Source of the DNA: Fibrobacterales bacterium
GTDB lineage: Bacteria > Fibrobacterota > Fibrobacteria > Fibrobacterales > CADBQJ01
Direction of reading: 5' to 3'
Assembly (NCBI GenBank): GCA_017650365.1
Contig: JAGCEZ010000030.1
Coordinates: 1-47,082 of the forward strand
DNA: 47,082 bases
The notes under the pieces are model-generated. The model worked only from the letters and a program-made list of their open reading frames with translations. It was not told where the DNA came from and searched no databases. Positions within the stretch are counted from its first letter, which is position 1. Each line of letters starts with the position of its first letter. Positions 1,552 to 15,216 of the stretch are shown piece after piece. A program made the translations under genes and the position numbers.

Positions 1552-2217
1552 TCACTGATTTTTCTTCTTCCCCCGGTTTTCCTTCCGCCATTCCCACGGC
1601 GGCTGGGGGTTCGGGTCGGCCCAGAGCCCGCGCTTCGCGTTCCGCGCCTCTTCCTCGAGCCGCGCGAGCGAGTCGGTCCAGCCGTACTGCCTGTAGTACC
1701 AGGCCATCCCCTCCGAAATCATCCGCGCGGACTGGTCTTCGCCGTCGATCACGACCGATCCGACGATGCGACCGTAGCGGTCCACGGTGTTGACGACGAG
1801 CGCGATCTCCTTCCCCATGACGAGTTCCGTGAAACGCTCCTTCGACTTCTGCCCGAACGGCATGTTCTTCTCCGGCGCGTCCATCTGCGCCACGCGCACG
1901 CGCTGCTTCCGGTTGTCGCCGTAGAGAAAGTCGAACGTGTCTCCGTCCTGAACCTTGACCGCGCGGCCCCGCAGCGTGTCGCCCTTCGCCCCGCGCATCT
2001 CCTCCTTGAGCTGGCGCGCGGTCTGCTTTTTCGTCTGCTTGGAGGAGAGCTGTTCCGACGGACCTTCGTTCTTTCCGATGGCTCCGTCCGAATTCTCCTG
2101 CGCGATTCCCTGGATCAGCCCGACGACGAGCAGGACCAGCAGCGTCGTCAGCGACGTCGCGATCCTCCGGCGCGAAGGAACGCGCCTAGGCGAAACGGAC
2201 CGTGACCTCGACTTCAT
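1552..2217 (-). CDS. Secreted or membrane-anchored thermonuclease (SNase) domain protein
   Basis: A 221-residue protein with a basic N-terminus, one hydrophobic segment (about residues 21-40, signal peptide or anchor), a charged linker and a staphylococcal-nuclease domain (about 78-205). Catalytic-site equivalents are visible: D93 in QDGDTF (Ca2+ ligand, SNase D21), R108, D113 and E116 in RVAQMDAPE (R35, D40, E43), and R150 in YGRIVG (R87). The residue matching T41 is Ala114. The family cleaves DNA and RNA using Ca2+; the export signal suggests action outside the cytoplasm, for example nutrient scavenging or defence. The C-terminus (WEWRKENRGKKKNQ) is strongly basic. Its start overlaps the 3' end of the upstream phosphoesterase gene by 32 bp, implying co-transcription. 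Confidence 0.85.
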   Translation of the reverse strand: MKSRSRSVSPRRVPSRRRIATSLTTLLVLLVVGLIQGIAQENSDGAIGKNEGPSEQLSSKQTKKQTARQLKEEMRGAKGDTLRGRAVKVQDGDTFDFLYGDNRKQRVRVAQMDAPEKNMPFGQKSKERFTELVMGKEIALVVNTVDRYGRIVGSVVIDGEDQSARMISEGMAWYYRQYGWTDSLARLEEEARNAKRGLWADPNPQPPWEWRKENRGKKKNQ

Positions 2218-2917
2218 CGCCTCTCCATTCGACCGTCTGCCAGCCCGGTTCGGAACTCGCGATCGCGAATCCCGGCTCCTCGTCCGAAATCTGGAACTGC
2301 GTCGCGGGCGCGAGGTGCAGGAGCAGCCCGCCCGCCTCCACGCTCTTTCCGCTGTGGTAGTGTCCGCAGAAGACGTGCCGAATCGAAGGAATCCCCTTCA
2401 GGCGCTCCAGCACGGGCCCGTGGTCCAGCAGCGGCCATTTCGTATCCATGAAAAGAGAGCCGCAGGGCGACGGCGGATGGTGGATCCAGAGCGCGCATGG
2501 CCCCTTCTCCTTTCCCGCTTCGCCTTCCAGCCAGTCCAGCTGCCAGGAATCCACGCGGTTCGCCGAGCTGTCGAGGACGAAGTGCTCCACGCCTCCGAGC
2601 GAAAAGCGGTAGACCAGCTTGCCTTGCGTCGACGGCAGCGAAAGCGCCGAAATCAGCCGCGCGGAGTCGTCGTGGTTCCCGGAGACGAAGAAAAGCGGAA
2701 TCTTCGCGCCCTCGATCTCGCGCTTCAGGAGGTCGAGCTCCTTCTCCGTCCCGTGGTCGGTCATGTCGCCGGAGAAGACGACCGCGTCCGGCTTTTCGGC
2801 GAGAACCGCCTTCCAGACCCTGCGGAAATTGGCGAGGTAGAACTCCTGCTGCGCACGGTCCGCGCCGGCGCCGAGGTGGATGTCCGAAATCTGGGCGATT
2901 TTCAGCTGTGGAGACAT
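2186..2917 (-). CDS. Calcineurin-like metallophosphoesterase (CpdA-like)
   Basis: A 243-residue cytoplasmic protein with the complete metallophosphoesterase signature in order: D12 and H14 in ISDIHLG, GDMTD, GNHDD, the HHP segment (LWIHHPPS) and GHYHSG. These residues bind the two catalytic metals. Spacing and length fit the class III cyclic-nucleotide phosphodiesterase (CpdA/YfcE-like) family, whose members hydrolyse phosphodiesters, including cAMP in some species. The real substrate cannot be read from sequence. The ATG lies upstream of all motifs. It is the first gene of a minus-strand pair with the nuclease gene (32-bp overlap). Upstream is a 356-bp intergenic region shared with divergent ilvD. 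Confidence 0.85.
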   Translation of the reverse strand: MSPQLKIAQISDIHLGAGADRAQQEFYLANFRRVWKAVLAEKPDAVVFSGDMTDHGTEKELDLLKREIEGAKIPLFFVSGNHDDSARLISALSLPSTQGKLVYRFSLGGVEHFVLDSSANRVDSWQLDWLEGEAGKEKGPCALWIHHPPSPCGSLFMDTKWPLLDHGPVLERLKGIPSIRHVFCGHYHSGKSVEAGGLLLHLAPATQFQISDEEPGFAIASSEPGWQTVEWRGDEVEVTVRFA

Positions 2918-3273
2918 CTTGGAAAAAGCTTAGAAAAATGTGGTTTCGGTTTTGGAAAACGGGTCCCCTCCGGGTTTTCCACGTCTCTCCACATCGTTTT
3001 TCAAAGACCCGCCTGAGGTTTTCAAAACTTGACTTCGCAACGGTTTTTCCACCCAAGTCCGCAGCCGTCGGCCCGGAGAGAGCGTGGTCGCGTTTTCCCC
3101 CACTGTCAACACCCCTATATACCCTCTCCTAGAATGAAAATTCTAAGAGGAGAGCGGGGTTCGAGCAGGGCGAAAGCCAAAGCATCGATCGAAAATCCGC
3201 GGAGCTCAAAGCGAGCCTGAGTGGCTATTTTTGAAAGCCCAGCCGAAGAACAGGCCTGTCCAGGAGTTTTGCC
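2918..3273. other. 356-bp intergenic region between a phosphoesterase gene and ilvD, with hairpins
   Basis: No convincing gene is seen. The first 150 bp contain several short inverted repeats built from GGAAAAC/GTTTTCC and a GTTTTcAAAAC palindrome (about 2955-3030). A stronger hairpin lies at 3125-3153: TCTCC-TAGAAT, GAAA loop, ATTCTA, a 3-nt bulge, then GGAGA. It is not followed by a T-run, so it is more likely an operator or mRNA structure than a terminator. Ahead of ilvD is a TATTTTTG promoter octamer (3226-3233). An AT-rich CTATATA stretch (about 3113-3119) may be a second promoter. Confidence 0.5.
3226..3233 (+). promoter_or_regulatory. ilvD promoter, TAnnTTTG-type element
   Basis: The octamer TATTTTTG, preceded by GGC, matches the Bacteroidetes-type -7 consensus TAnnTTTG. 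Transcription would start near 3238 and give a leader of about 36 nt carrying the Shine-Dalgarno sequence AGGAG at 3261-3265. No clear -33 TTTG partner was found. Predicted by motif only. Confidence 0.5.
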
Positions 3274-5112
3274 ATGCCCGAATACCGTTCCGCGAAGACG
3301 ATCACCGGAAAGAAGATGGCCGGCGCCCGCGCCCTCTGGCGCGCCACCGGCGTGAAGAAAGAGGACTTCGGCAAGCCGATCGTCGCCGTCGCGAACTCCT
3401 TCACCCAGTTCGTTCCCGGCCACGTGCATCTCCACGACGTGGGCCAGCTGGTCTGCCGGGAAATCGAAAAGGCGGGCGGCATCGCCAAGGAATTCAACAC
3501 CATCGCCGTGGACGACGGCATCGCGATGGGCCACGACGGCATGCTCTACAGCCTGCCGAGCCGCGAAGTGATCGCCGACTCCGTGGAGTACATGTGCAAC
3601 GCCCACTGCGCCGACGCCCTGGTCTGCATCAGCAACTGCGACAAGGTGACCCCCGGCATGCTGATCGCGACGATGCGCCTCAACATCCCCACGATCTTCG
3701 TGAGCGGCGGTCCGATGGAGGCCGGCAAGGCGGAAATCGAAGGGAAGAAGTGGCGGCTCGACCTGATCGACGCCATGGTGCAGAGCGCTCGTCCCGACAT
3801 CACCGAAGAGGACGCCGACGCGTTCGAAGCCTCCAGCTGCCCCACCTGCGGCTCCTGCTCCGGCATGTTCACCGCCAACTCGATGAACAGCCTGACCGAA
3901 GCGCTCGGCTTCGCCCTTCCCGGCAACGGCACGACTCTCGCGACCCACGCGGACCGCAAAAACCTCTTCGTGAAGGCGGCCCACCGCATCGTCGAGATGG
4001 CCAAGGCCTGGTACGAAAAGGAGGAAGCCTCCGTCCTGCCGAAGAACATCGCGACCTTCGAAGCGTTCGAAAACGCCATGCGGCTCGACATCGCCATGGG
4101 CGGCTCCACCAACACCGTGCTCCATCTGCTGGCCGTGGCCCACACCGCCGGCGTGGACTTCACGATGAAGGACATCAACCGCCTTTCGCTGAACACCCCG
4201 CACATCTGCAAGATCGCCCCCAGCACCAACCTGGTCCACATCGAGGACGTCCACCGCGCCGGCGGCATCATGGCGATCCTCGGCCAGCTCGACAAGCTCG
4301 GGTTGATCCACCGCGATTGCGCCACGGTGATGTATCCGACCATCGGCGAGGAGATCGACAAGTGGGACGTCGCCCGGAACCCCTCCGACGACGTCAGGAA
4401 GCTCTACCTGGCCGCGCCCGCGAACAAGTTCAACCTCGAGCCCTTCTCGCAGGATTCCCGCTGGCCCGACCTGGACCTGGACCGCGCGAACGGCGCGATC
4501 CGCGACCTCGACCACGCGTTCAGCAAGGACGGCGGCCTGGCTGTGCTCTACGGCAACCTGGCCGTGGACGGCTGCGTCGTGAAGAGCGCGGGCGTGGACG
4601 CCTCCTGCTGGACCTTCACCGGCCCGGCCCGCGTCTACGAATCCCAGGAAGAGGCCAACGACGGCATCCTGGGCGGCGAAGTGAAGGCGGGCGACGTGGT
4701 GGTGATCCGCTACGAAGGCCCGAAGGGCGGCCCCGGCATGCAGGAGATGCTCTACCCCACCAGCTACCTGAAGACGATGGGACTGGGCAAGTCGTGCGCG
4801 CTGATCACCGACGGCCGCTTCTCCGGTGGCACCTCCGGCCTGTCGCTCGGCCACATCAGCCCCGAAGCGGCCAACGGCGGCAACATCGCCTTGGTCCGCG
4901 ACGGCGACATGATCGAGATCGACATCCCGAACCGGACGATCCAGGTCGCGCTGACCGACGAAGAGCTGGCTGCGCGCCGCAAGGAGGAGGAAGCGCAGGG
5001 CAAGCTCGCCTTCCGTCCGAAGAAGCGCGACCGCAAGGTGAGCGACGCGCTGCGCGCCTACGCCAGCATGGTGCTGAGCGCGGACAAGGGCGGCGCCCGC
5101 GAAGTCCCGTAG
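3274..5112 (+). CDS. ilvD: Dihydroxy-acid dehydratase
   Basis: A 612-residue IlvD that dehydrates 2,3-dihydroxy-isovalerate and 2,3-dihydroxy-3-methylvalerate to the 2-keto acids in valine, isoleucine and leucine synthesis. Length and motifs match the E. coli enzyme (616 aa). Cluster ligands are C122 in [11 protein letters not shown] and C195 in the [13 protein letters not shown] motif. The position that carries a third Cys in the [2Fe-2S] plant/mycobacterial class reads [10 protein letters not shown], so this is probably the oxygen-sensitive [4Fe-4S] class, which suits an anaerobe. The ATG at 3274 follows AGGAG at 3261 and a TATTTTTG promoter. No other ilv gene is adjacent. A perfect-looking bidirectional terminator follows at 5138-5167. 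Confidence 0.97.
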
Positions 5113-5193: not shown

Positions 5194-6177
5194 CTACGCG
5201 TCCGGAAGGTTCGCCCTGTAGGCGGCGTAGGTCGTGGAGAGCAGCGTGTTGACGTCGCTGCATTGCGCTTCCCAGCCGAGGAGCTCCTTCGCCTTCGCGG
5301 AGGAGGCGTAGAGTTCGGTCGAGTCGCCTTCGCGGCGCGGGCCGAAGGACCAGTCGAACGGATGGCCGACGATCCTCTCCGCTTCGGAGATCATCTCCAG
5401 GACGGAGACGCCGCGTCCGGTGCCGAGGTTGACCGTGAGGTCCTTCTTCTCCGCCTCGATCCACTCGAGCGCCAGGACGTGCGCGCGCGCCAGGTCGTCC
5501 ACGTGGATGTAGTCGCGGATGCAGGTTCCGTCCGGCGTGGGGTAGTCGTTCCCGAAGACGGTCATCGACGGGCGGATCCCCACCGCGGTCTCCATCACCA
5601 CGGGGAGGAGGTTCGCGGGGTTGCGCTCCAGGCCGCGCAGCTCGCCTTCGCAGTCGTAGCCCGCGGCGTTGAAATAGCGGAGCGCGCCGTAGCGCATTCC
5701 GCGGAGGCGCGAGTTCCAGGCGAGGACGCGTTCGATCTCCAGCTTGGTGAAGCCGTAGTAGTTCTCGGGCTCGGTCGGGTGCTTCTCGTCGATTGGAAGG
5801 TAGACGGGGTTTCCGTAGACCGCCGCGGAGGAGGAGAGGAGGAAGATCTTCACCCCGCATTCCACGCAGGCGTCGATCAGCTCGATCGAACCGATCAGAT
5901 TGTTGTAGGAGTATTTGACCGGATCGGTCATCGACTCCCCGGCCGCCTTGCTCGCGGCGAGGTGGATCGTCGCGTCGGGCTTGAAGGCGTCGAGTTCGGC
6001 GCGCAGCCGGAGCCCGTCGTGGATGTCGCCCAGGACGAATCCGGCGCCGGGCCGCAGGTTTTCCTGGAGGCCGGAGCTCAGGTTGTCGTAGACCATGACC
6101 CGGTGGCCCGCGGCCAGGAGCCTCTTGCAGACGTGGGAGCCGATGTACCCGGCCCCGCCGACGACGAACACGCGCAT
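5194..6177 (-). CDS. galE: UDP-glucose 4-epimerase
   Basis: A 327-residue extended short-chain dehydrogenase that interconverts UDP-glucose and UDP-galactose, feeding galactose metabolism and surface-glycan synthesis in the cytoplasm. The NAD-binding GGAGYIGSH motif lies at the N-terminus, DNLSSG follows, and the catalytic YxxxK is in NYYGFTKLEIE; a Ser-rich SSSAAVYG strand precedes it, as in GalE. The length is slightly under the E. coli enzyme (338). It sits 19 nt behind the GH18 gene, with a GGGAGA-like Shine-Dalgarno, so the two form a minus-strand operon. Other sugar-nucleotide epimerases are possible, but the N-terminal motifs and length favour GalE. Confidence 0.9.
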   Translation of the reverse strand: MRVFVVGGAGYIGSHVCKRLLAAGHRVMVYDNLSSGLQENLRPGAGFVLGDIHDGLRLRAELDAFKPDATIHLAASKAAGESMTDPVKYSYNNLIGSIELIDACVECGVKIFLLSSSAAVYGNPVYLPIDEKHPTEPENYYGFTKLEIERVLAWNSRLRGMRYGALRYFNAAGYDCEGELRGLERNPANLLPVVMETAVGIRPSMTVFGNDYPTPDGTCIRDYIHVDDLARAHVLALEWIEAEKKDLTVNLGTGRGVSVLEMISEAERIVGHPFDWSFGPRREGDSTELYASSAKAKELLGWEAQCSDVNTLLSTTYAAYRANLPDA

Positions 6178-6196: not shown

Positions 6197-7357
6197 TTAT
6201 TCGCGGTGCGCCGCGACGGTGTGCAGGAAGGAGTTGTCGTCCAGGTCCTGGCCGAGCTCCCAGATCATGGCGCCGCCGAAGTTCCGCGCGAAGCAGCTCT
6301 TCTTGTCGATGGTCTTCAGGGAGTTCCAGGAGACCGTCTTTTCGAACCCGGCCTCATCGACGGTGAAGTAGTCGTCGTCGGCGTGGTCGGGCCAGAAGGC
6401 CGCGATCTCCCGCGCGAGGAGTTCGCCCCGCCCGTTTTCGCCTTCGGCCGTGTTGGTCGTCCAGTAATAGCCGTAGAAGGGGAGCCCGAGGACGACGAAC
6501 GAGGCGCCGCGGCCGCGGTTGAGGGCCCAGTAGTTCGTCTCCTGCATGGCCTTGGCGTAGGTGGAGTGTTCCCCCTTCCCGGTCCAGGTGCCCGAATGGT
6601 CGTAGCTCATCACGTTGATGAAGTCCATCTGGTCGAGCGCGGCGTCGGTGAACTTTTCGCCGACCCAGTTGGCCACGGCGGCGGTGACCAGCGCAGTGTC
6701 GCCCAGGGCGGCGCGCAGCGCCACGACGAAGGATTCGTACTTGGCGTCGAACGCGGCGGCGTAGGCCGGCTTGCTGTCGGAGTATTCCAGGTCGACGTCC
6801 ACGCCGTCGATGCCGAGCCGGCGGACCAGGGCTGCCAGGGAGTCGGCGAGCGCCGCGACCCCGCCGTCCTCGGTCAGCTTCGTCGCCCAGACGTCGCGGG
6901 CGCCGTCCCCGCCGCCGCCGATGGAGGCGAGCACTTTGATGCCGTGCGCCTTGGCGGAGTCGATGGCGGCGGCGAGCTTCTCGTCGTTGAACTTGGAGGA
7001 GAAGCGGCCGTTCTGGTCGGGATTGAAGAAGGCGAGGCAGAGGTGGGTCAGCTTGCTCCAGTCGCCGGTGCCGATCCAGCCGGTGCGGTAGTAGGGGAGG
7101 TAGCCGACGAGGCGGGCGAGCGGCGCGGTGTTGGCGCAGGTGCTCGCGGAGGCCGAAGAGGTCTGCGTTTCGGAGGAGACGCCGGGTTCGTCCGAAAGGC
7201 CGGAGTCGGAGGAGCCGCCGTCGCCGTTCGATTCGGAGGACTCTTCGACCGAGGAGGAGAGGGGTTCGTCGTTGGAGGAGGTGCCGCTGTCGCCGCAGGC
7301 GAAGAGGAAGAACGCCGTGCCGGCGCAGAGAATCGACCGGAAAAGAAGATTGGACAT
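6197..7357 (-). CDS. GH18-family (chitinase-like) lipoprotein
   Basis: A 386-residue surface or periplasmic lipoprotein. A signal peptide ends in the lipobox FLFAC with lipidated C21. A Ser/Glu/Gly-rich linker (about 22-75) precedes a glycoside hydrolase family 18 TIM barrel (about 80-386). The catalytic DxxDxDxE motif is complete: D184, D187, D189 and acid/base E191 in IDGVDVDLEYSD; the SIGGG strand typical of GH18 is at 145-149. The family hydrolyses beta-1,4-GlcNAc linkages (chitin, or peptidoglycan/glycoprotein glycans). The start at 7357 was chosen because it begins the signal peptide; a start 35 codons upstream would bury it. Upstream lies the origin-like region. It leads an operon with galE. 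Confidence 0.88.
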   Translation of the reverse strand: MSNLLFRSILCAGTAFFLFACGDSGTSSNDEPLSSSVEESSESNGDGGSSDSGLSDEPGVSSETQTSSASASTCANTAPLARLVGYLPYYRTGWIGTGDWSKLTHLCLAFFNPDQNGRFSSKFNDEKLAAAIDSAKAHGIKVLASIGGGGDGARDVWATKLTEDGGVAALADSLAALVRRLGIDGVDVDLEYSDSKPAYAAAFDAKYESFVVALRAALGDTALVTAAVANWVGEKFTDAALDQMDFINVMSYDHSGTWTGKGEHSTYAKAMQETNYWALNRGRGASFVVLGLPFYGYYWTTNTAEGENGRGELLAREIAAFWPDHADDDYFTVDEAGFEKTVSWNSLKTIDKKSCFARNFGGAMIWELGQDLDDNSFLHTVAAHRE

Positions 7358-7503
7358 GGAAAACCTGCCAAAAAGGGTTTTGTCTAATATATATAAGACG
7401 GGGTGGAGAAATTGGCGGGTGTACGGAAGTTTTCCAAAAAAGATGTCCACATATCCACGCAAAATGTGGATAGATTGTTTGCTACTTGAAAAGATTTAGG
7501 CGA

Positions 7504-7519
7504 TGTTTCACGTGAAACA
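7504..7519. promoter_or_regulatory. parS site 1
   Basis: TGTTTCACGTGAAACA, a perfect 16-bp palindrome identical to the widely conserved chromosomal parS consensus bound by ParB. It lies about 1.5 kb upstream of parB. Confidence 0.93.
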
Positions 7520-7556
7520 ATTCACAGCGGAGGAAAAGGTGTGGATATCTGCGGGA

Positions 7557-7572
7557 TGTTTCACGTGAAACA
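7557..7572. promoter_or_regulatory. parS site 2
   Basis: A second perfect copy of TGTTTCACGTGAAACA, 53 bp from the first (start to start). Both share the flanks GA on the left and A on the right, so they may be a local duplication. It ends 26 bp before the rsmG promoter octamer, so bound ParB could affect rsmG-parAB transcription. Confidence 0.93.
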
Positions 7573-7598
7573 ATGGCGCGGTGAAACGGGGGAGGATG

Positions 7599-7606
7599 TA
7601 TATTTG
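7599..7606 (+). promoter_or_regulatory. rsmG promoter element, leaderless arrangement
   Basis: TATATTTG is an exact TAnnTTTG match. Only 5 nt (AGCGC) separate it from the rsmG ATG at 7612, so the transcript should begin at or next to the start codon. A purine-rich GGGGGAGG lies upstream of the element (7588-7595), too far from the ATG to act as a ribosome-binding site. Confidence 0.6.
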
Positions 7607-7611
7607 AGCGC

Positions 7612-8220
7612 ATGGAATGGAGCGAATTCTCCCGGATGCTGGAGTTCCCCTTCACGGCGGAACAGCTGGAGAAGTTCGCGGCTCTGGAAGAGTTGGTCTC
7701 CCGGCTGAACCGAAAGCACAACCTCGTCTCTGCGAACGACCTTCCGTTGTTGAGGGAGCGCCATCTGCAGGACGGGCTGACCGCACTCTCCTGGATGCGC
7801 GACGCGAAAGGCCGTCATCTGGATCTCGGTTCCGGGACAGGGTTCCCTCTCCTCCCGCTGGCGATCGCCCAGCCCGGGCGGATGTTCGTGGGCGTGGAGT
7901 CCCGCTCGACCCGCGTGATGCAGATGCGCTACCTGGCGGGGGAGTTGGGGCTGGGGAACGTGGAGCTCGTCGAGTCCCGGATCGAGGAGCTGCCGGCGGA
8001 GTTCGGGCCGTTCGAGACGGCGACCTCCCGGGCGCTCGGCGCGCTCGAGGAGGATTGGTTCCGGGCGAAGCCGTTCCTTTCTGCGGGCGGCCGCTTTATT
8101 ACCTTTAAGTCCGAACGGGCCTCCGTTCCGGTGGACGGAACAGAGCCCCGCTGCCGCGAATACAGGTTGCATCCGCAACTCAAGAGCTATTTCTCGGTCT
8201 GTCTGGAGAAGAAAGCATGA
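7612..8220 (+). CDS. rsmG: 16S rRNA (guanine527-N7)-methyltransferase RsmG (GidB)
   Basis: A 202-residue SAM-dependent methyltransferase that modifies G527 of 16S rRNA. The N-terminal helical part contains the RsmG-typical NRKHNLVSANDLPLLRERHL segment, followed by the SAM-binding motif HLDLGSGTGFPLLPLAIA and the ESRSTRVMQMRYLA strand. Length is normal for the family (about 200-215). It starts the run rsmG-parA-parB and overlaps parA by 4 bp (ATGA), so translation is coupled. A TATATTTG element 5 nt before the ATG predicts a leaderless transcript; no Shine-Dalgarno is suitably placed. Confidence 0.95.
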   Translation: MEWSEFSRMLEFPFTAEQLEKFAALEELVSRLNRKHNLVSANDLPLLRERHLQDGLTALSWMRDAKGRHLDLGSGTGFPLLPLAIAQPGRMFVGVESRSTRVMQMRYLAGELGLGNVELVESRIEELPAEFGPFETATSRALGALEEDWFRAKPFLSAGGRFITFKSERASVPVDGTEPRCREYRLHPQLKSYFSVCLEKKA

Positions 8221-9026
8221 GCCGTGTTATCGCAATCAGCAACCAGAAGGGCGGCGTCGGCAAGACGACGACCGCGGTGAACCTCGCCGCCAGCCTGGGG
8301 GCGATGGAGCACAAGGTGCTGTTGATCGACATGGACCCGCAGGCCAACTCCTCGATGGGTTCCGGCGTCACCGAGATGCAGGACGAGGACATCACCGAGG
8401 TGATGCGCTGGGCGGCCGACCCCTCCACCCTTTCGCTGGAGAGGGTGCGCGGGGTGATCCACGACGTCGAAAACATCCCCTTCTTCCAGGTGCTCCCCAG
8501 TTCGACCTCCCTGGCGGAGCTGGAGGTGGAGCTGACCATCGACACGCGCGCGGAGAGCCGTCTCCGGCTGCGCCATCTAATCGACCTGCTGCGGAACGAA
8601 TACGAGTTCATCGTCATCGACTCGCCGCCCTCCCTCAGCCTGCTGACCATCAACGTGCTCTGCGCGGCCGACTCCGTCATCATCCCGATCCAGTGCGAAT
8701 TCTACGCGATGCAGGGGGTGGCCGACCTGCTGAACACGATCATCCGGGTGCAGAACGGGCTGAATCCCGCGCTCGAGATCGACGGGGCGCTGCTGACCAT
8801 GTACGACTCCCGCCTGAGCCATTCGCGCCAGGTGATGGAGGAGGTGCAGCGGGAGTTCGGGGAACGGCTCTTCCGCACGGTGATTCCGCGGAACGTGAAG
8901 CTGAGCGAGGCCCCTTCGTTCGCGAAGCCGGTCCTTCTCTACGACGTCAAGAGCAAGGGTTCGCGGTGCTACATGGAGCTGGCGCAGGAGCTGCTCGCCG
9001 TTCTCAGGCAACGAGGAGTGATCTAA
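8217..9026 (+). CDS. parA: Chromosome-partitioning ATPase ParA (Soj)
   Basis: A 269-residue ParA/Soj ATPase that forms nucleoid-bound gradients to move ParB-parS complexes. The deviant Walker A box is at residues 10-19 (QKGGVGKTTT, signature K11 and K16), DMDPQANSS is the Walker A' motif, and IVIDSPPSLSLLT is Walker B. It has no N-terminal DNA-binding extension, consistent with the chromosomal type. The ATG overlaps the rsmG stop and parB begins directly after its TAA, a compact coupled unit. Two parS sites lie 0.7 kb upstream. Confidence 0.96.
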   Translation: MSRVIAISNQKGGVGKTTTAVNLAASLGAMEHKVLLIDMDPQANSSMGSGVTEMQDEDITEVMRWAADPSTLSLERVRGVIHDVENIPFFQVLPSSTSLAELEVELTIDTRAESRLRLRHLIDLLRNEYEFIVIDSPPSLSLLTINVLCAADSVIIPIQCEFYAMQGVADLLNTIIRVQNGLNPALEIDGALLTMYDSRLSHSRQVMEEVQREFGERLFRTVIPRNVKLSEAPSFAKPVLLYDVKSKGSRCYMELAQELLAVLRQRGVI

Positions 9027-9923
9027 ATGGGAAAATCGTCGCTCGGCACGGGCTTTGACGCCCTGATGGGGAGAAACGCCGGACTGGTCGGACAGGTGAG
9101 CGCCGGTCTGGCCAATGCCGGACAGAACGCGGCTTCGGGCGAGGGCGTTTCGCGCATTCCGCTCGCGCTGGTCGATCCCAACCCCTTCCAGCCCCGCGTG
9201 GAGTTCGGCGAGGACGAGATCCTCGAGCTGGCGGAGTCGATCCGCAAGCAGGGGCTGCTCCAGCCGATCACCGTCCGCAAGCACCAGGACCGCTACCAGA
9301 TCATCGCGGGCGAACGGCGCGTGCGCGCCTGCCGGCTGCTCGGCGACGAGACGATCGCCGCGCTGGTCAAGGAGAAGATCTCCGACCGGCGGATGGCCGC
9401 GCTCGGCCTGGTCGAGAACATCCAGCGCGTGGACCTGAACCCGGTGGAAGAGGCCGTGGCGATGCGCCAGCTGCAGGAGCAGTACGACTACACGCACGAA
9501 CAGCTGGCCGAGGAGCTGGGCCGTTCGCGCTCCGCGGTGACGAACGGGCTCCGTCTGCTCTCCCTGCCGGAGGAGGTGCTGGACCTGCTCCGCGAGAAGA
9601 AACTGACCGCCGGACACGCCCGCGCGCTGCTGTCCGACGGGCTCGCCGACCCGGCGGCCCTCGCCCGCGAAATCGTCGCCAAGGGGCTGAGCGTCCGCCA
9701 GGCGGAGGAGCTGAGCCGGAAGAGCGGGAAAACAAAAACTAAAAAAGCCAAAAAGCCGGAGGTCCGGCGGGACCCCAATCTCGCCGAACTGGAGCGGGAG
9801 ATGGGCTACGTCCTGGGCGCGGACGTCGTGGTGGAGCACCTCGACGGCATCGGCACCATCTCGATCCGCTTCTCCTCGAACGAGCAGTTCAAGGCGATCT
9901 ACTCCCGGATCACGGGCAAGTAG
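9027..9923 (+). CDS. parB: Chromosome-partitioning protein ParB (Spo0J)
   Basis: A 298-residue ParB, the CTP-dependent clamp that loads at parS and spreads. The N-terminal domain carries NPFQPRVEF, then the CTP-binding GERRVRAC box (about residues 94-101) and ENIQRVDLNPVEEA; the helix-turn-helix (YDYTHEQLAEELGRSRSAV) reads parS. A Lys-rich linker (about 232-249) leads to the C-terminal dimerisation domain. The Lys-rich linker is encoded by an unusually A-rich stretch at 9727-9755. The ATG directly abuts the parA stop. Matching parS sites lie at 7504-7519 and 7557-7572. Confidence 0.96.
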   Translation: MGKSSLGTGFDALMGRNAGLVGQVSAGLANAGQNAASGEGVSRIPLALVDPNPFQPRVEFGEDEILELAESIRKQGLLQPITVRKHQDRYQIIAGERRVRACRLLGDETIAALVKEKISDRRMAALGLVENIQRVDLNPVEEAVAMRQLQEQYDYTHEQLAEELGRSRSAVTNGLRLLSLPEEVLDLLREKKLTAGHARALLSDGLADPAALAREIVAKGLSVRQAEELSRKSGKTKTKKAKKPEVRRDPNLAELEREMGYVLGADVVVEHLDGIGTISIRFSSNEQFKAIYSRITGK

Positions 9924-9944: not shown

Positions 9945-10733
9945 ATGCGCGTCTTCACCACGGTTCAGATCATCCCCTCGGGAACGGGGACGGTGCGGCA
10001 GGTCAACCTCTACCGCTGGCAGCTCCGGCTGATCGCGCTCCTCGTCTCGCTGACGGTCGTGGTGGTGGCGCTCGCCGCCTACTACGGGACGACCGTGCTG
10101 ATGAGCGCGGCGGAGTCGGAGCGGCTGCGCGAGGAGAACTCCTTCCTGAAGTCGGAGAACGAGAACTACAGGCAGGCGCTCTCCATCCTCGACTCGGTCC
10201 AGGCGGAGCAGGAGAGGCTGCACGCCGTCGGCGCGGTCCTGCTCGGCCCCGCGGACTCCGTTCCCGAGCTGGCCGCGGCCTCCCGGCCCGAAGGCGCTTC
10301 GGGCGACGCGGAGCTGGAGGAGCACATCCGCCGGTACCGGAAGAGCGAGAAGAAGCCGGGCGAATCGCGGCCGGGCATCAAGCCGGTGATCGGCGTGGTG
10401 ACGCAGCGCTGGAAGGAGGGCGGCTCGGACCACCAGGGCGTGGACATCGCCGCGCTCCTGAACGACCCGGTCTACGCCGCGGCCGCGGGCGAGGTCGTGG
10501 AGGCCGGCGACCGGGGCGACCTCGGGCTGACCGTGGAGCTCGACCACGGCGACGGCTGGAGGACGCTCTACGCGCACCTCAACCGGATCCTGGTCCGCAA
10601 GGGCGACGCGGTCGGCCGCGGGAGCTCGATCGGCACGATCGGGATGACCGGGAACACGACCGGCCCGCATCTGCACTACGAGGTCCTGAAGAACGGCAAA
10701 CGGCAGGACCCTTCGCTATTTTTTATGGACTAG
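9945..10733 (+). CDS. Membrane-anchored M23 (LytM) peptidoglycan endopeptidase
   Basis: A 262-residue protein with a short cytoplasmic N-terminus, one transmembrane helix (about 28-46), a coiled coil (about 54-93), a charged linker and an M23 domain (about 148-258). All zinc and catalytic residues are present: H163 and D167 (HQGVD), H211 (YAHLN), and H242 and H244 (PHLHYEV). An active enzyme that cleaves peptide cross-links in peptidoglycan is therefore expected, acting in the periplasm. It is 21 nt behind parB and 15 nt before a bactofilin gene. The M23-bactofilin pairing is known from other bacteria, where it controls cell curvature or stalk/helix shape (for example CcmA/Csd in Helicobacter). 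Its last codons contain the octamer TATTTTTT, a possible promoter for the next genes. Confidence 0.9.
   Translation: MRVFTTVQIIPSGTGTVRQVNLYRWQLRLIALLVSLTVVVVALAAYYGTTVLMSAAESERLREENSFLKSENENYRQALSILDSVQAEQERLHAVGAVLLGPADSVPELAAASRPEGASGDAELEEHIRRYRKSEKKPGESRPGIKPVIGVVTQRWKEGGSDHQGVDIAALLNDPVYAAAAGEVVEAGDRGDLGLTVELDHGDGWRTLYAHLNRILVRKGDAVGRGSSIGTIGMTGNTTGPHLHYEVLKNGKRQDPSLFFMD
10717..10724 (+). promoter_or_regulatory. Possible internal promoter for bactofilin-atp genes
   Basis: CTATTTTTT inside the last codons of the M23 gene fits the CTAnnTTTS-like pattern and uses codons (CTA TTT TTT) that are unusual in this GC-rich sequence. A start near 10729 would give a 20-nt leader with AGGAGG (10738-10743) before the bactofilin ATG. 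Motif evidence only. Confidence 0.35.
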
Positions 10734-10748: not shown

Positions 10749-11123
10749 ATGGCACGCGCCGAGGAAAACGACGGCAACAACATCACCATCATTTCGCAGG
10801 GGACCACGATCACCGGCGAAATCCAGGTCAACAACGATCTCCGCCTTGCCGGAAAGCTCAAGGGCAAGCTGACCTGCGCCCGCGACCTCGTGCTGGACAA
10901 GACCGGCCTGGTCGAAGGCGACGTCGAAGTGGCCTCCGCCACCCTCTGCGGCACCGTCAAGGGCAACGTCAAGGTTTCGGGCCGGCTGACCCTCGAAAAG
11001 GAATCGCTCCTGGAAGGCGACATCGACACCAAGGAGCTGGTGATCAACCAGGGCGCCACGTTCCGGGGCAAGTGCCAGATGGGCGCCCCGACGTCGGCGA
11101 AGCCCGAGGCCAAGTCTCTCTGA
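10749..11123 (+). CDS. Bactofilin
   Basis: A 124-residue bactofilin, a nucleotide-independent cytoskeletal protein that polymerises into filaments on the inner membrane and recruits cell-wall enzymes. The central beta-helix (about residues 12-110) is shown by regular turns such as TITGEIQVNNDLRLAGKLKG, VEGDVEVAS, KGNVKVSGRL and LEGDIDTKEL; short disordered ends flank it. The length is typical. AGGAGG at 10738-10743 is a strong Shine-Dalgarno for the ATG. The M23 peptidase gene directly upstream is its likely functional partner. The 3' end overlaps the next reading frame by about 50 bp if that gene uses its GTG start. Confidence 0.93.
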   Translation: MARAEENDGNNITIISQGTTITGEIQVNNDLRLAGKLKGKLTCARDLVLDKTGLVEGDVEVASATLCGTVKGNVKVSGRLTLEKESLLEGDIDTKELVINQGATFRGKCQMGAPTSAKPEAKSL

Positions 11124-12630: not shown

Positions 12631-13134
12631 ATGTCGAATCCGCTTCTGCAGCTCGACCCCGGCGTCGCGGTCTGGACGCTCGCCGTCTTCGCGCTGCTCC
12701 TCGTGGTCCTGAAGAAGGTCGCCTGGGGGCCGCTGCTCTCGGCGATCGACGCGCGCGACGAGAAGCTGCGCCGGACGATGGAGGAGGCCGAGAGGACGCG
12801 CGCCGCCAACGAGTCGGCCGCCTCGGAGCGCGACCGGCTGATGCGGGAGTCCGCGAAGCGCGCCGACGAGATCGTGGCGGAGGCGCGGAGCCGGGCGGAC
12901 GAGCTGGCCAGGCGGTCGGAGCGCGCGGCCCGCGAGGAGCGCGAGCGCATCCTGGAGACCGCGCGGAAGTCGGCCGACGCGATGCTCGCCTCGGCGAAGA
13001 ACGAGCTGCGGCTGAAGGTGGTCGACGCGACGGTCGGCCTCGCCTCGAAGCTGCTCGTCCGCGAGCTGGACGTCGAGTCCGACAGGCGCGTGGTCGAGCG
13101 GATGATGGACGAACTGGAGAAGGAAGAGGCGTAG
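12631..13134 (+). CDS. atpF: F-type ATP synthase subunit b
   Basis: A 167-residue peripheral-stalk subunit. One N-terminal membrane helix (about residues 10-30, VAVWTLAVFALLLVVLKKVA) is followed by WGPLLSAIDARDEKLR, a signature of b subunits, and a long charged Ala/Arg/Glu-rich helix (40-165) that dimerises along the stalk. Only one b-type gene is present, so it is presumably a homodimer. It begins 1 nt after the atpE stop and ends 3 nt before atpH. Confidence 0.94.
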   Translation: MSNPLLQLDPGVAVWTLAVFALLLVVLKKVAWGPLLSAIDARDEKLRRTMEEAERTRAANESAASERDRLMRESAKRADEIVAEARSRADELARRSERAAREERERILETARKSADAMLASAKNELRLKVVDATVGLASKLLVRELDVESDRRVVERMMDELEKEEA

Positions 13135-13137
13135 GCG

Positions 13138-13671
13138 ATGGGCTGCGGAACGGTCGCGGAGCGGTACGCGGAGGTCCTCCTGGCGAGAATCGCCGAGGAG
13201 GCGGACGGCGGAGCCGTGTTCGCGGAGGCGGCGCGCCTGGAGCGCGCCTTCGCCGCGGACCCGCGGATCGGGAAGCTGCTGGACGACCCGGCGATCCCCG
13301 AGGAGGCGAAGGCGCGCGCCCTCGTCTCCTGCGACCCGGAGCGCACGGCCGCGATGCGGAGCTTCATCCTCTTCCTGGCCGCGCGGCGCAGGGTCGCCCT
13401 GCTTCCCGCGGTGGCGGCGCGCGTGCGCGAGGAGGGCGAGCGACGGCGCGGGACGCGCCGCGCGACGGTCTGGAGCGCGCGCGAGCTGGAGCCCGCGGAG
13501 CTGGAGCGCCTGAAGCGCTTCGCGCGGAGGCGCGCGGGCGGGGAGTGCGTCCTGGAGACGCGCGTGGACCCCGCCGTCATCGGCGGATTCCGGATGCGGC
13601 TGGGCGACCGGATGGTCGACTGTTCGCTGCGACGGCAGCTCGACCTGCTCCGCGGGCGGCTGGGAGCTTAG
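13138..13671 (+). CDS. atpH: F-type ATP synthase subunit delta
   Basis: A 177-residue delta (OSCP) subunit joining the peripheral stalk to the top of F1. The N-terminal helical domain (ERYAEVLLARIAEEADG) and the C-terminal GGECVLETRVDPAVIGGFRMRL segment, with the conserved DPxxIGGF core, are recognisable; the protein ends in a short Leu/Arg-rich helix. The sequence is very Arg-rich. Position between atpF and atpA confirms the call. Confidence 0.92.
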   Translation: MGCGTVAERYAEVLLARIAEEADGGAVFAEAARLERAFAADPRIGKLLDDPAIPEEAKARALVSCDPERTAAMRSFILFLAARRRVALLPAVAARVREEGERRRGTRRATVWSARELEPAELERLKRFARRRAGGECVLETRVDPAVIGGFRMRLGDRMVDCSLRRQLDLLRGRLGA

Positions 13672-13680
13672 GAGAAAAAG

Positions 13681-15216
13681 ATGGACGACGGACTTCGACC
13701 GGACGAGATTTCCGAGGTTCTTTTCAGGGAGCTCAAGGCCTTCGAGGGCTCGGGCCCCGACGTGTACGAGATGGGGACCGTGCTGAGCGCCGGCGACGGG
13801 ATCGCGCGCGTGCACGGCCTTTCGAACGCGATGGCGGGCGAGCTGGTCTCCTTCCGCGACCGCCCGGACGTGCGCGGCCTGGTGCTGAACCTCGAGGCCG
13901 GAAACGTCGGCCTGGCGCTGCTCGGGAACGCGGACGCGGTGGAGGAGGGCGACGTCGTCGTCCTGACCGGGAAGGTCGCCTCCGTGAAGGTCGGGCCCGC
14001 GACGGTCGGCCGCGTGGTGGACGCGCTGGGGCGCGCCGTGGACGGCGGACCCGCGATCGAGAGCGACCTGGAGCGGCCGATCGAGGCGCGCGCGCCGGGG
14101 ATCGTGGAACGGCAGAACGTCCGCGAGCCGCTCTACACCGGGCTGAAGTCGGTGGACGCGATGATCCCGATCGGGCGGGGCCAGCGCGAGCTGATCGTCG
14201 GCGACCGCAAGACCGGGAAGACGACCATCGCGCTCGACGCGATCGCCAACCAGAAGGGCAAGGGCGTCCACTGCATCTACGTCGCGATCGGGCAGAAGTC
14301 CTCGACGGTCGCGCTGGCCGTGGAGACGCTGCGCGAGGCGGGCGCGATGGAGTACACGACCGTCGTCGCGGCCTGCGCGTCGGAGGCGGCCTCCATGCAG
14401 TACCTCGCCCCCTACGCCGGCGCCGCCCTGGGCGAACACTGGCGCGACAACGGCGGGCACGCGCTCGTGGTCTACGACGACCTGACCAAGCACGCGCAGG
14501 CCTACCGCCAGATGTCGCTGCTGCTGCGCCGCCCGCCGGGGCGCGAGGCGTTCCCGGGCGACGTCTTCTACCTGCACTCGCGCCTGCTGGAGCGCGCCGC
14601 GAAGCTGAGCGACGCGCGCGGCGGCGGCTCGCTGACCGCGCTCCCGATCGTGGAGACGCAGGCGGGCGACGTCTCGGCCTACATCCCGACGAACGTGATC
14701 TCCATCACCGACGGGCAGATCTTCCTCGACGCAAACCTCTTCAACTCCGGCCTGCGCCCCGCGCTGGACGTGGGGATCTCGGTCTCGCGCGTCGGCGGCG
14801 ACGCGCAGATCAAGGCGACGAAGCAGGTCGCCGGGCGGCTGAAGCTCCTCCTCGCGCAGTACGCCGAGCTCGCCGCCTTCTCGCAGTTCGCGGGCGACCT
14901 CGACAAGGCGACCCGCGCGCAGCTGGACCAGGGCGCGCGCCTGACCGAGCTCCTCAAGCAGCCGCAGGGCCGTCCGCTCCCGATCGGCAAGACGATCATG
15001 GTCTTCTACGCCGGGCTGAACGGATACCTCGAGAACCTCCCCGTGGACCAGGCGGTCCGCTTCGAGTCGGAGCTCCTGGGCTACGTCGACCTCGTCGCGC
15101 CCGGCCTCCCCGCGGAGATCGAGGAGGCGAAGGAGCTGACCCCGCAGCTGACGGACGCGATGCGTTCGCTCCTCGACAAGTTCTCCGCGCAGTTCGCGCC
15201 GGACCCGAAGGAGTAG
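13681..15216 (+). CDS. atpA: F-type ATP synthase subunit alpha
   Basis: A 511-residue F1 alpha subunit, the non-catalytic nucleotide-binding subunit of the hexamer. The P-loop [12 protein letters not shown] starts near residue 175, [20 protein letters not shown] follows, and the catalytic-site arginine finger is in [17 protein letters not shown]. The N-terminus ([16 protein letters not shown]) is the delta-binding segment. Length is normal. It follows atpH after 9 nt, with a GGAG Shine-Dalgarno. Confidence 0.97.

Follow-up and report, generated by a model that had tools for sequence, protein, structure and literature searches.

A probable parS centromere with clustered DnaA-box-like sites in the origin region of a Fibrobacterales chromosome

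The window analysed here is a 47-kb stretch of DNA, contig C65 of the host assembly (G000), and the features that concern us are two intergenic regions and the genes around them (Table 1). Gap A lies between a GH18 glycosidase-like gene and a conserved string of genes that opens with rsmG, parA and parB; gap B lies between mpe, a metallophosphoesterase gene, and an ilvD-type dehydratase gene. The GH18 gene begins with an ATG at 7357, at the edge of gap A; its open frame extends to a TTG at 7462, but the homologue in the relative G001 aligns from the ATG. The host is placed in the order Fibrobacterales. Among the genomes compared, it shares its family (f1) only with G001, which is of the same genus; the others form family f2, presumably the Fibrobacteraceae.

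Table 1. Genes and sequence features of gap A, gap B and their surroundings, in window coordinates.
Feature	Position	Strand	Basis or remark
mpe, metallophosphoesterase (PF00149)	2186..2917	-	Homologue of the neighbour of the relatives' conserved block
Gap B, upstream of mpe, 356 bp	2918..3273	.	Syntenic with the relatives' skew-minimum block; preferred origin candidate
Weak R2 match to the box end of the relatives' unwinding segment	3100..3123	-	E=4, not significant
ilvD-type dehydratase, right border of gap B	3274..5112	+	Pfam
NAD-dependent epimerase	5194..6177	-	Order mpe-gap B-ilvD-epimerase-GH18 common to G001
GH18 glycosidase-like gene, left border of gap A	6197..7357	-	Pfam; alignment of G001 homologue
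Gap A, divergent intergenic region with parS and DnaA-box-like sites	7358..7611	.	Centromere (very probable); rival origin candidate
AT-rich 16-bp near-palindrome, possible unwinding element	7383..7398	.	Sole one found in the window by scan
DnaA-box-like ATGTCCACA, 7/9	7443..7451	+	9-mer scan
DnaA-box-like ATATCCACG, 7/9	7451..7459	+	9-mer scan
DnaA-box-like CTATCCACA, 8/9; inverted pair with the preceding box (7451)	7465..7473	-	9-mer scan
parS site 1, perfect 16-bp palindrome TGTTTCACGTGAAACA	7504..7519	.	Direct sequence reading and assembly scan
DnaA-box-like ATATCCACA, 8/9, between both parS	7540..7548	-	9-mer scan
parS site 2, perfect 16-bp palindrome TGTTTCACGTGAAACA	7557..7572	.	Direct sequence reading and assembly scan
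rsmG (GidB, PF02527)	7612..8220	+	Pfam
parA (AAA_31)	8217..9026	+	Pfam
parB (ParB_N, HTH_ParB, ParB_C)	9027..9923	+	Pfam; alignment to solved ParB/Spo0J chains
M23 peptidase, in the conserved rsmG-parAB gene string	9945..10733	+	Pfam
Bactofilin, end of the conserved string; ATP synthase genes next	10749..11123	+	Pfam

The two parS palindromes, scored against a 16-bp consensus that we assumed for this site, start 53 bp apart with 37 bp in between, and rsmG starts 39 bp past the end of the second. At up to two mismatches this pair is the only parS of the host assembly (2,079,203 bp in 126 contigs). The initial annotation had described two perfect palindromes 53 bp apart in a gap directly before rsmG-parA-parB; both statements stand, the start of rsmG at 7612 marking the right border of gap A. 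A parS palindrome with genes for ParA and ParB nearby, two of the features expected of a chromosomal ParABS centromere, is present in the host genome.

The same arrangement recurs in the relatives. A parS with at most one mismatch is present in 57 of 61 genomes, and in all 16 loci with a recognised rsmG a parS is found within about 450 bp upstream of that gene. These loci comprise the window, G001 and 14 from family f2; in L045 parS is seen only at two mismatches, and the rsmG starts used for the count are alignment starts, that of L049 being set by hand. Four loci from genus g8 (L038, L039, L040 and L041) have a parS with no rsmG, parA or parB in the 5–20 kb fetched and hold at most one DnaA box; a search for mpe at 1e-20 found no match in the 12 listed genomes of that genus, whose layout seems to be different. 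Given perfect parS sites, adjoining parA and parB genes and the upstream parS in 16 of 16 loci, we conclude that gap A is very probably the site at which the copied chromosomes are pulled apart, that is, the centromere, as had been proposed.

Gap A also carries sequences resembling DnaA boxes, scored against a consensus that we took as given. The four sites annotated initially, two of them matching at 8 of 9 positions, were recovered at 7443, 7451, 7465 and 7540; the first three stand to the left of the parS pair and the fourth inside it, and two further, weaker 7/9 sites are found at 7402 and 7430. Two or more boxes with at most one mismatch were reached by 0.004 of 4000 dinucleotide shuffles of the gap, and six boxes with at most two mismatches by 0.0005; when the parS letters were removed before shuffling, 8 and 1 of 4000 shuffles reached these counts. 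The best box-scored 254-bp segments of the 47 kb start between 7301 and 7401 (step 10), that is, at gap A. The most AT-rich segments of this length are there too (best start 7331), which agrees with the AT-rich stretch noted earlier, and of all 100-bp stretches of the window the least stable one, starting at 7427, is again in gap A. Across the assembly there are 53 box-like sites with at most one mismatch, compared with 57 for a reversed control pattern; as there is no genome-wide excess, the signal at gap A is one of clustering. A DnaA-box cluster exceeding shuffled sequence and an AT-rich unstable element, both features expected of an oriC, are therefore found in gap A.

The genome of G001 presents a closely comparable picture. 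Its contig C261 starts inside the counterpart of gap A and contains five boxes (at most one mismatch) and a parS with one mismatch, followed by rsmG, parA, parB, the M23 peptidase gene, bactofilin and ATP synthase genes. None of 4000 shuffles reached five boxes, and the sole TTATCCACA of the G001 assembly abuts rsmG at this place. Another contig, C22, holds the GH18, epimerase and ilvD genes, a gap and mpe in the same order as in the window, so that, by gene order, the counterpart of gap A falls where C22 and C261 meet. Both intergenic regions are conserved between the species: in gap A 126 of 207 aligned bases are identical (61%, compared with at most 50% in 30 shuffles), and in gap B 180 of 314 (57%, with 48% for the best of 30 shuffles).

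Boxes are common beside parS in family f2 as well. In 12 of its 14 loci, a parS (at most two mismatches) has at least two boxes (at most one mismatch) within 200 bp, the exceptions being L037 (G042), with no box near any parS, and L046, with at most one. Around 56 parS sites, boxes are about 3.5- to 4-fold more frequent than at AT-matched random positions where the local AT content is at least 0.6 (28 sites), with no excess at a local AT content of 0.5–0.6 (25 of the 56 sites); three sites fall below 0.5. Among 80 loci listed across phyla, at least 34 hold a parS with at most one mismatch in the region compared, which extends no more than 10 kb to either side of parB. Among the matches listed, at least two boxes occur within about 160 bp of parS in 6 of 9 Fibrobacter/Fibrobacteres loci and in 0 of 25 others, with one box consensus assumed throughout and with some of the nine loci coming from the same genomes as in the 61-genome set.

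A simple explanation of these sites would be that gap A is only a divergent promoter for the GH18 gene and for rsmG-parA-parB, with parS and the DnaA boxes serving autoregulation. DnaA is able to regulate transcription, divergent genes do flank gap A, the second parS ends only 39 bp before rsmG, and parS is found upstream of rsmG in every one of the 16 loci. We nevertheless consider this explanation improbable. If ParABS works in the host, the only parS of its assembly must serve segregation; the box-rich parS of the relatives are also found 1–9 kb upstream of rsmG; and a scan for sigma-70-type promoter-like sites, the one promoter type that it covers, found none in gap A.

The relatives also bear on where replication starts. 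In the complete genome of G014, the sampled 20-kb stretches have negative GC skew as far as 1.425 Mb (11 of 11) and positive skew from there on (9 of 9), and parS lies at 1.416–1.420 Mb. The two dnaA matches, at 0.79 and 2.39 Mb, are both 0.6–1.0 Mb away from this switch. The absence of dnaA from the window, which the initial annotation had singled out, is therefore unremarkable, and an origin next to dnaA was rejected for the relatives because both paralogues lie far from the switch in this complete genome. Two DUF772 transposase genes of the same length (L098:3194-4567 and 12786-14159, 9.6 kb apart) stand beside the parS region of G014.

At finer resolution the skew minimum falls in a different intergenic region, upstream of mpe. 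Family f2 has a conserved AT-rich gap of 340–432 bp between bactofilin and mpe (12 loci with the mpe start found), in which box-like sites such as TTATCCACT and the repeated words TTGAAAA/TTTTCAA accompany an AT-rich core; strict boxes are often few. Examples are L044:16159-16360, L098:18142-18343 and the corresponding gaps in other f2 loci. All 13 of the 20-kb f2 loci counted have their skew minimum no more than 1 kb from this block, at a median of 535 bp; several of them have little DNA past the block (0.5 kb in L053), where a minimum further out would be missed. The rsmG contig of G042, which has no block, was left out of this count. In the same 13 loci the minimum is nearer to the block than to any parS, the nearest of which is 3–5.3 kb away, so that the centromere of the relatives is origin-proximal. 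When longer stretches are scanned, G003 has its minimum inside the block, G017 and G021 have theirs about 0.5 kb from it, and that of G014 lies 3.6 kb past the block.

R1, a model of the block that uses sequence alone and was built from 12 sequences, matches 51 of the 61 genomes at E values up to 2.9e-13, counting the 12 that supplied the model sequences. In 50 of the 51, the matched segment shares the strand of mpe and precedes the gene by 82–204 bp; in G022 it is 1.8 kb off. Only weak matches were obtained in eight genomes (G005, G034, G044, G051, G053, G055, G056 and G060), and at default filters there was no match in the whole assemblies of G000 or G001. In G042 bactofilin is followed by the ATP synthase genes, as in the window, yet the block is still found upstream of mpe, on another contig, which ties it to mpe rather than to bactofilin. 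We conclude that the bactofilin-mpe block is probably the chromosome origin of Fibrobacter and its relatives.

These results divide the claim, made in the initial annotation, that gap A is a combined chromosome origin and centromere. Its wider form is upheld by the skew of the relatives, with the switch of G014 at parS, and a centromere in the origin region is well supported; that the origin is gap A itself is doubtful, since the minimum lies at the mpe block. Applied to the relatives, the GC-skew check proposed there gave a similarly divided answer, with a switch at the parS locus of the relatives and a minimum that is 3–5.3 kb from the nearest parS and not at the gap upstream of rsmG. The coarse skew switch in four relatives would by itself favour gap A, but the finer scan puts the minimum beyond the rsmG-bactofilin string.

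Because mpe of the host lies in the window, the gap upstream of it, gap B, is the syntenic counterpart of the relatives' block, about 4.1 kb to the left of gap A. The cumulative skew of the window has its minimum at 4515, between the two gaps but closer to gap B (1.2 kb) than to gap A (2.8 kb); skew in the host assembly is weak, and a low near 36 kb is nearly as deep. Skew at third codon positions calculated gene by gene (GC3) and the skew of the host's own contigs are too noisy to favour either gap.

Model searches speak against gap B rather than for it. At default filters neither R1 nor R2 has a match in gap B or in the stretches searched of the host genome and G001. Unfiltered, R1 matches gap B with E=3.6 in the window (20 kb) and E=0.14 in G001 (12.5 kb), neither significant, and gap A as well or better, with E=0.31 in the window and E=0.22 in G001. 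The R2 match in gap B (Table 1) has the orientation towards mpe that is expected, and the best unfiltered R2 match of the window lies in neither gap. These unfiltered matches are weak and do not discriminate between the gaps.

Box counts differ between the two regions. Allowing one mismatch, no box is seen in gap B of the window and a single one in its G001 counterpart, compared with two and five for gap A; at up to two mismatches gap B has four, a count reached by 9 of 1500 shuffles, and its counterpart in G001 three, which 35 of 1500 shuffles reach. Gap A alone holds the AT palindrome and the 100-bp stretch of lowest stability. Other elements were seen in gap B, namely a promoter-like site at 3106–3135 and, by eye, a TATATA sequence with an imperfect inverted repeat at 3120–3160, before ilvD, where the repeat tool gave none. 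From its sequence, gap B may be in part the promoter or leader of ilvD.

DnaA trios were also considered. In the relatives, the block of L042 has a run of DnaA-trio-like triplets that abuts its boxes. Runs of at least three triplets on either strand were found in neither gap A nor gap B, in a scan that is weak as a test, being positive at the expected place of the relatives' block in only 3 of the 7 loci tried. The consensus given for the trio is 3'-GAT-5' (PMC10721633); the triplet set used here is wider and was chosen for this analysis.

The main rival to an origin at gap B is a fused origin and centromere, in which gap A is itself oriC and its DnaA and ParB sites are interleaved, so that loading of ParB and opening of the origin affect each other directly. 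Box clustering is found there in both species of the genus; the least stable, AT-rich stretch and the AT palindrome lie near the boxes, one of which stands between the two parS; gap A resembles R1 weakly in both species; and the bactofilin-mpe gap of the relatives is absent from the window. The relatives, however, have box-rich parS gaps with no origin there, the block is beside mpe in 50 of 51 genomes and the host mpe has a conserved gap 4.1 kb away from gap A, and gap A has no trio run. We regard a fused origin as a serious possibility, though the less probable one. Direct cross-talk between ParB and DnaA at gap A, which had been proposed from the packing of their sites, may occur; closeness alone is no proof of it.

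On balance, and by a slight preference, we read gap A as a centromere in the origin region, with replication starting at gap B rather than at gap A. Gap A must still be reckoned with, since the block model finds no significant match in gap B. As a matter of judgement, the chance that gap B is the initiation site is a little better than even, that of gap A is distinctly lower, and a site elsewhere is unlikely. With box-rich parS in 12 of 14 f2 loci and a skew-defined origin elsewhere wherever this was checked, the DnaA boxes at parS look like a feature of the centromere (or of the operon promoter).

The genomes analysed commonly hold more than one DnaA, with at least two places matching the DnaA DNA-binding domain in 58 of 61. 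In the host, dnaA1 is on contig C118 (L034:8103-10085) and dnaA2 on contig C97 (L035:7316-8743); the DnaA1 frame has a long N terminus, perhaps an artefact of start-codon choice. Twelve aligned proteins were compared, with five more second or cut copies left out. Those of the DnaA1 type have DH(S/A)TV, and RF at the arginine-finger place, in 8 of 8, whereas in 4 of 4 of the DnaA2 type one residue is deleted and RD(Y/F) is present, with RF missing in 3 of 4; we take DH(S/A)TV to be a DNA-reading motif and RF to be the arginine finger. The stretch L035:7086-7332 at dnaA2 contains three boxes with at most one mismatch, one of them perfect, two upstream of the gene and one at its start, possibly for autoregulation.

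These boxes raise a further alternative, in which the origin is on another contig, for instance at dnaA2 on C97, and neither gap of the window initiates. The box score there is 9, compared with 8 for gap A. Against this, dnaA2 of G001 has only one such box, both dnaA genes of G014 are 0.6–1.0 Mb from the skew switch, the skew around dnaA2 on C97 shows no clear flip, and the box cluster there fits autoregulation of the gene; we consider an origin at such a place very unlikely. Two more places with paired boxes, on C8 and C99, were rejected as their best 254-bp scores in the stretches read are 3 and 5, compared with 8 for gap A, and the sites on C8 are inside open frames. A further box pair is present at C118:888 and 1028.

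Returning to an origin at gap B, we infer from the sequence elements, the gene order and synteny, and the skew position in the relatives how proteins would bind and how their actions would be coupled in the host species. ParB would load on the two parS of gap A and spread over the neighbouring DNA, and ParA would move the ParB-parS complex and so drive segregation. Replication would start at gap B, about 4.1 kb to the left of the centromere. DnaA bound to the boxes of gap A would most likely couple the start of replication to that of segregation, tune the rsmG-parA-parB promoter, or both. A bolder extension, which we put forward as a long shot, is that the centromere of the Fibrobacterales is, like the origin, a conserved DnaA-binding platform, where DnaA, bound at parS kilobases away from oriC, acts as a switch to release or start segregation, with DnaA2 specialised for the centromere or restraining DnaA1 and DnaA1 opening the origin.

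It is an open question, studied mainly in a few model species, whether bacteria use DNA sites common to both processes to couple the start of replication to segregation. The order described here, with boxes at parS and a skew-defined origin kilobases away, comes from outside those models and would make the two functions separable genetically. A concrete origin candidate for Fibrobacter and its relatives would be useful for building plasmids and for estimating growth rates from read depth. It also carries a warning, in that parS plus DnaA boxes alone does not mark an origin.

Among the titles and abstracts listed from the open-licence literature searched, none describes an origin from the Fibrobacter group or box-rich parS there. 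A chromosomal ParABS centromere is of a known kind, and DnaA boxes at parS with the origin elsewhere resemble the arrangement in Caulobacter, in a different phylum and with a different layout. In Caulobacter crescentus, as on our reading of the host, a chromosomal ParABS centromere with DnaA sites lies kilobases from the origin (about 8 kb in Caulobacter), and a DnaA site within parS is needed there for DnaA-dependent partitioning (PMC4468827, PMC6399470). The host differs in that its two perfect parS start 53 bp apart within a single gap ahead of rsmG-parAB, together with several predicted boxes, at which DnaA may bind and trigger the movement of parS.

Bacillus subtilis offers a caution: there, control of initiation by ParA is reported to persist after parS has been separated from oriC (PMC7614844). 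Other systems share single features with the host. On chromosome II of Vibrio cholerae, ParB2 is described as out-competing the initiator at inhibitory sites (PMC3688505), and ParB acting over initiator sites offers a comparable route from segregation to initiation; that replicon is a secondary chromosome, which uses an initiator of its own and 39-mer sites, whereas the host has DnaA boxes on its primary chromosome. The cisII and cisMP elements of Deinococcus radiodurans likewise combine DnaA-box-like and ParB-binding elements just upstream of parAB, but they belong to secondary replicons and have iterons rather than canonical parS, and both of their functions were tested experimentally (PMC7671480). 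In Thermus thermophilus, finally, a canonical parS is found at gidB (rsmG), immediately upstream of parA and about 6 kb from the predicted origin; there parS is inside gidB, the origin is placed beside dnaA, and the available part of the report mentions no box cluster at parS (PMC4409726), whereas in the host parS precedes rsmG and is accompanied by such a cluster.
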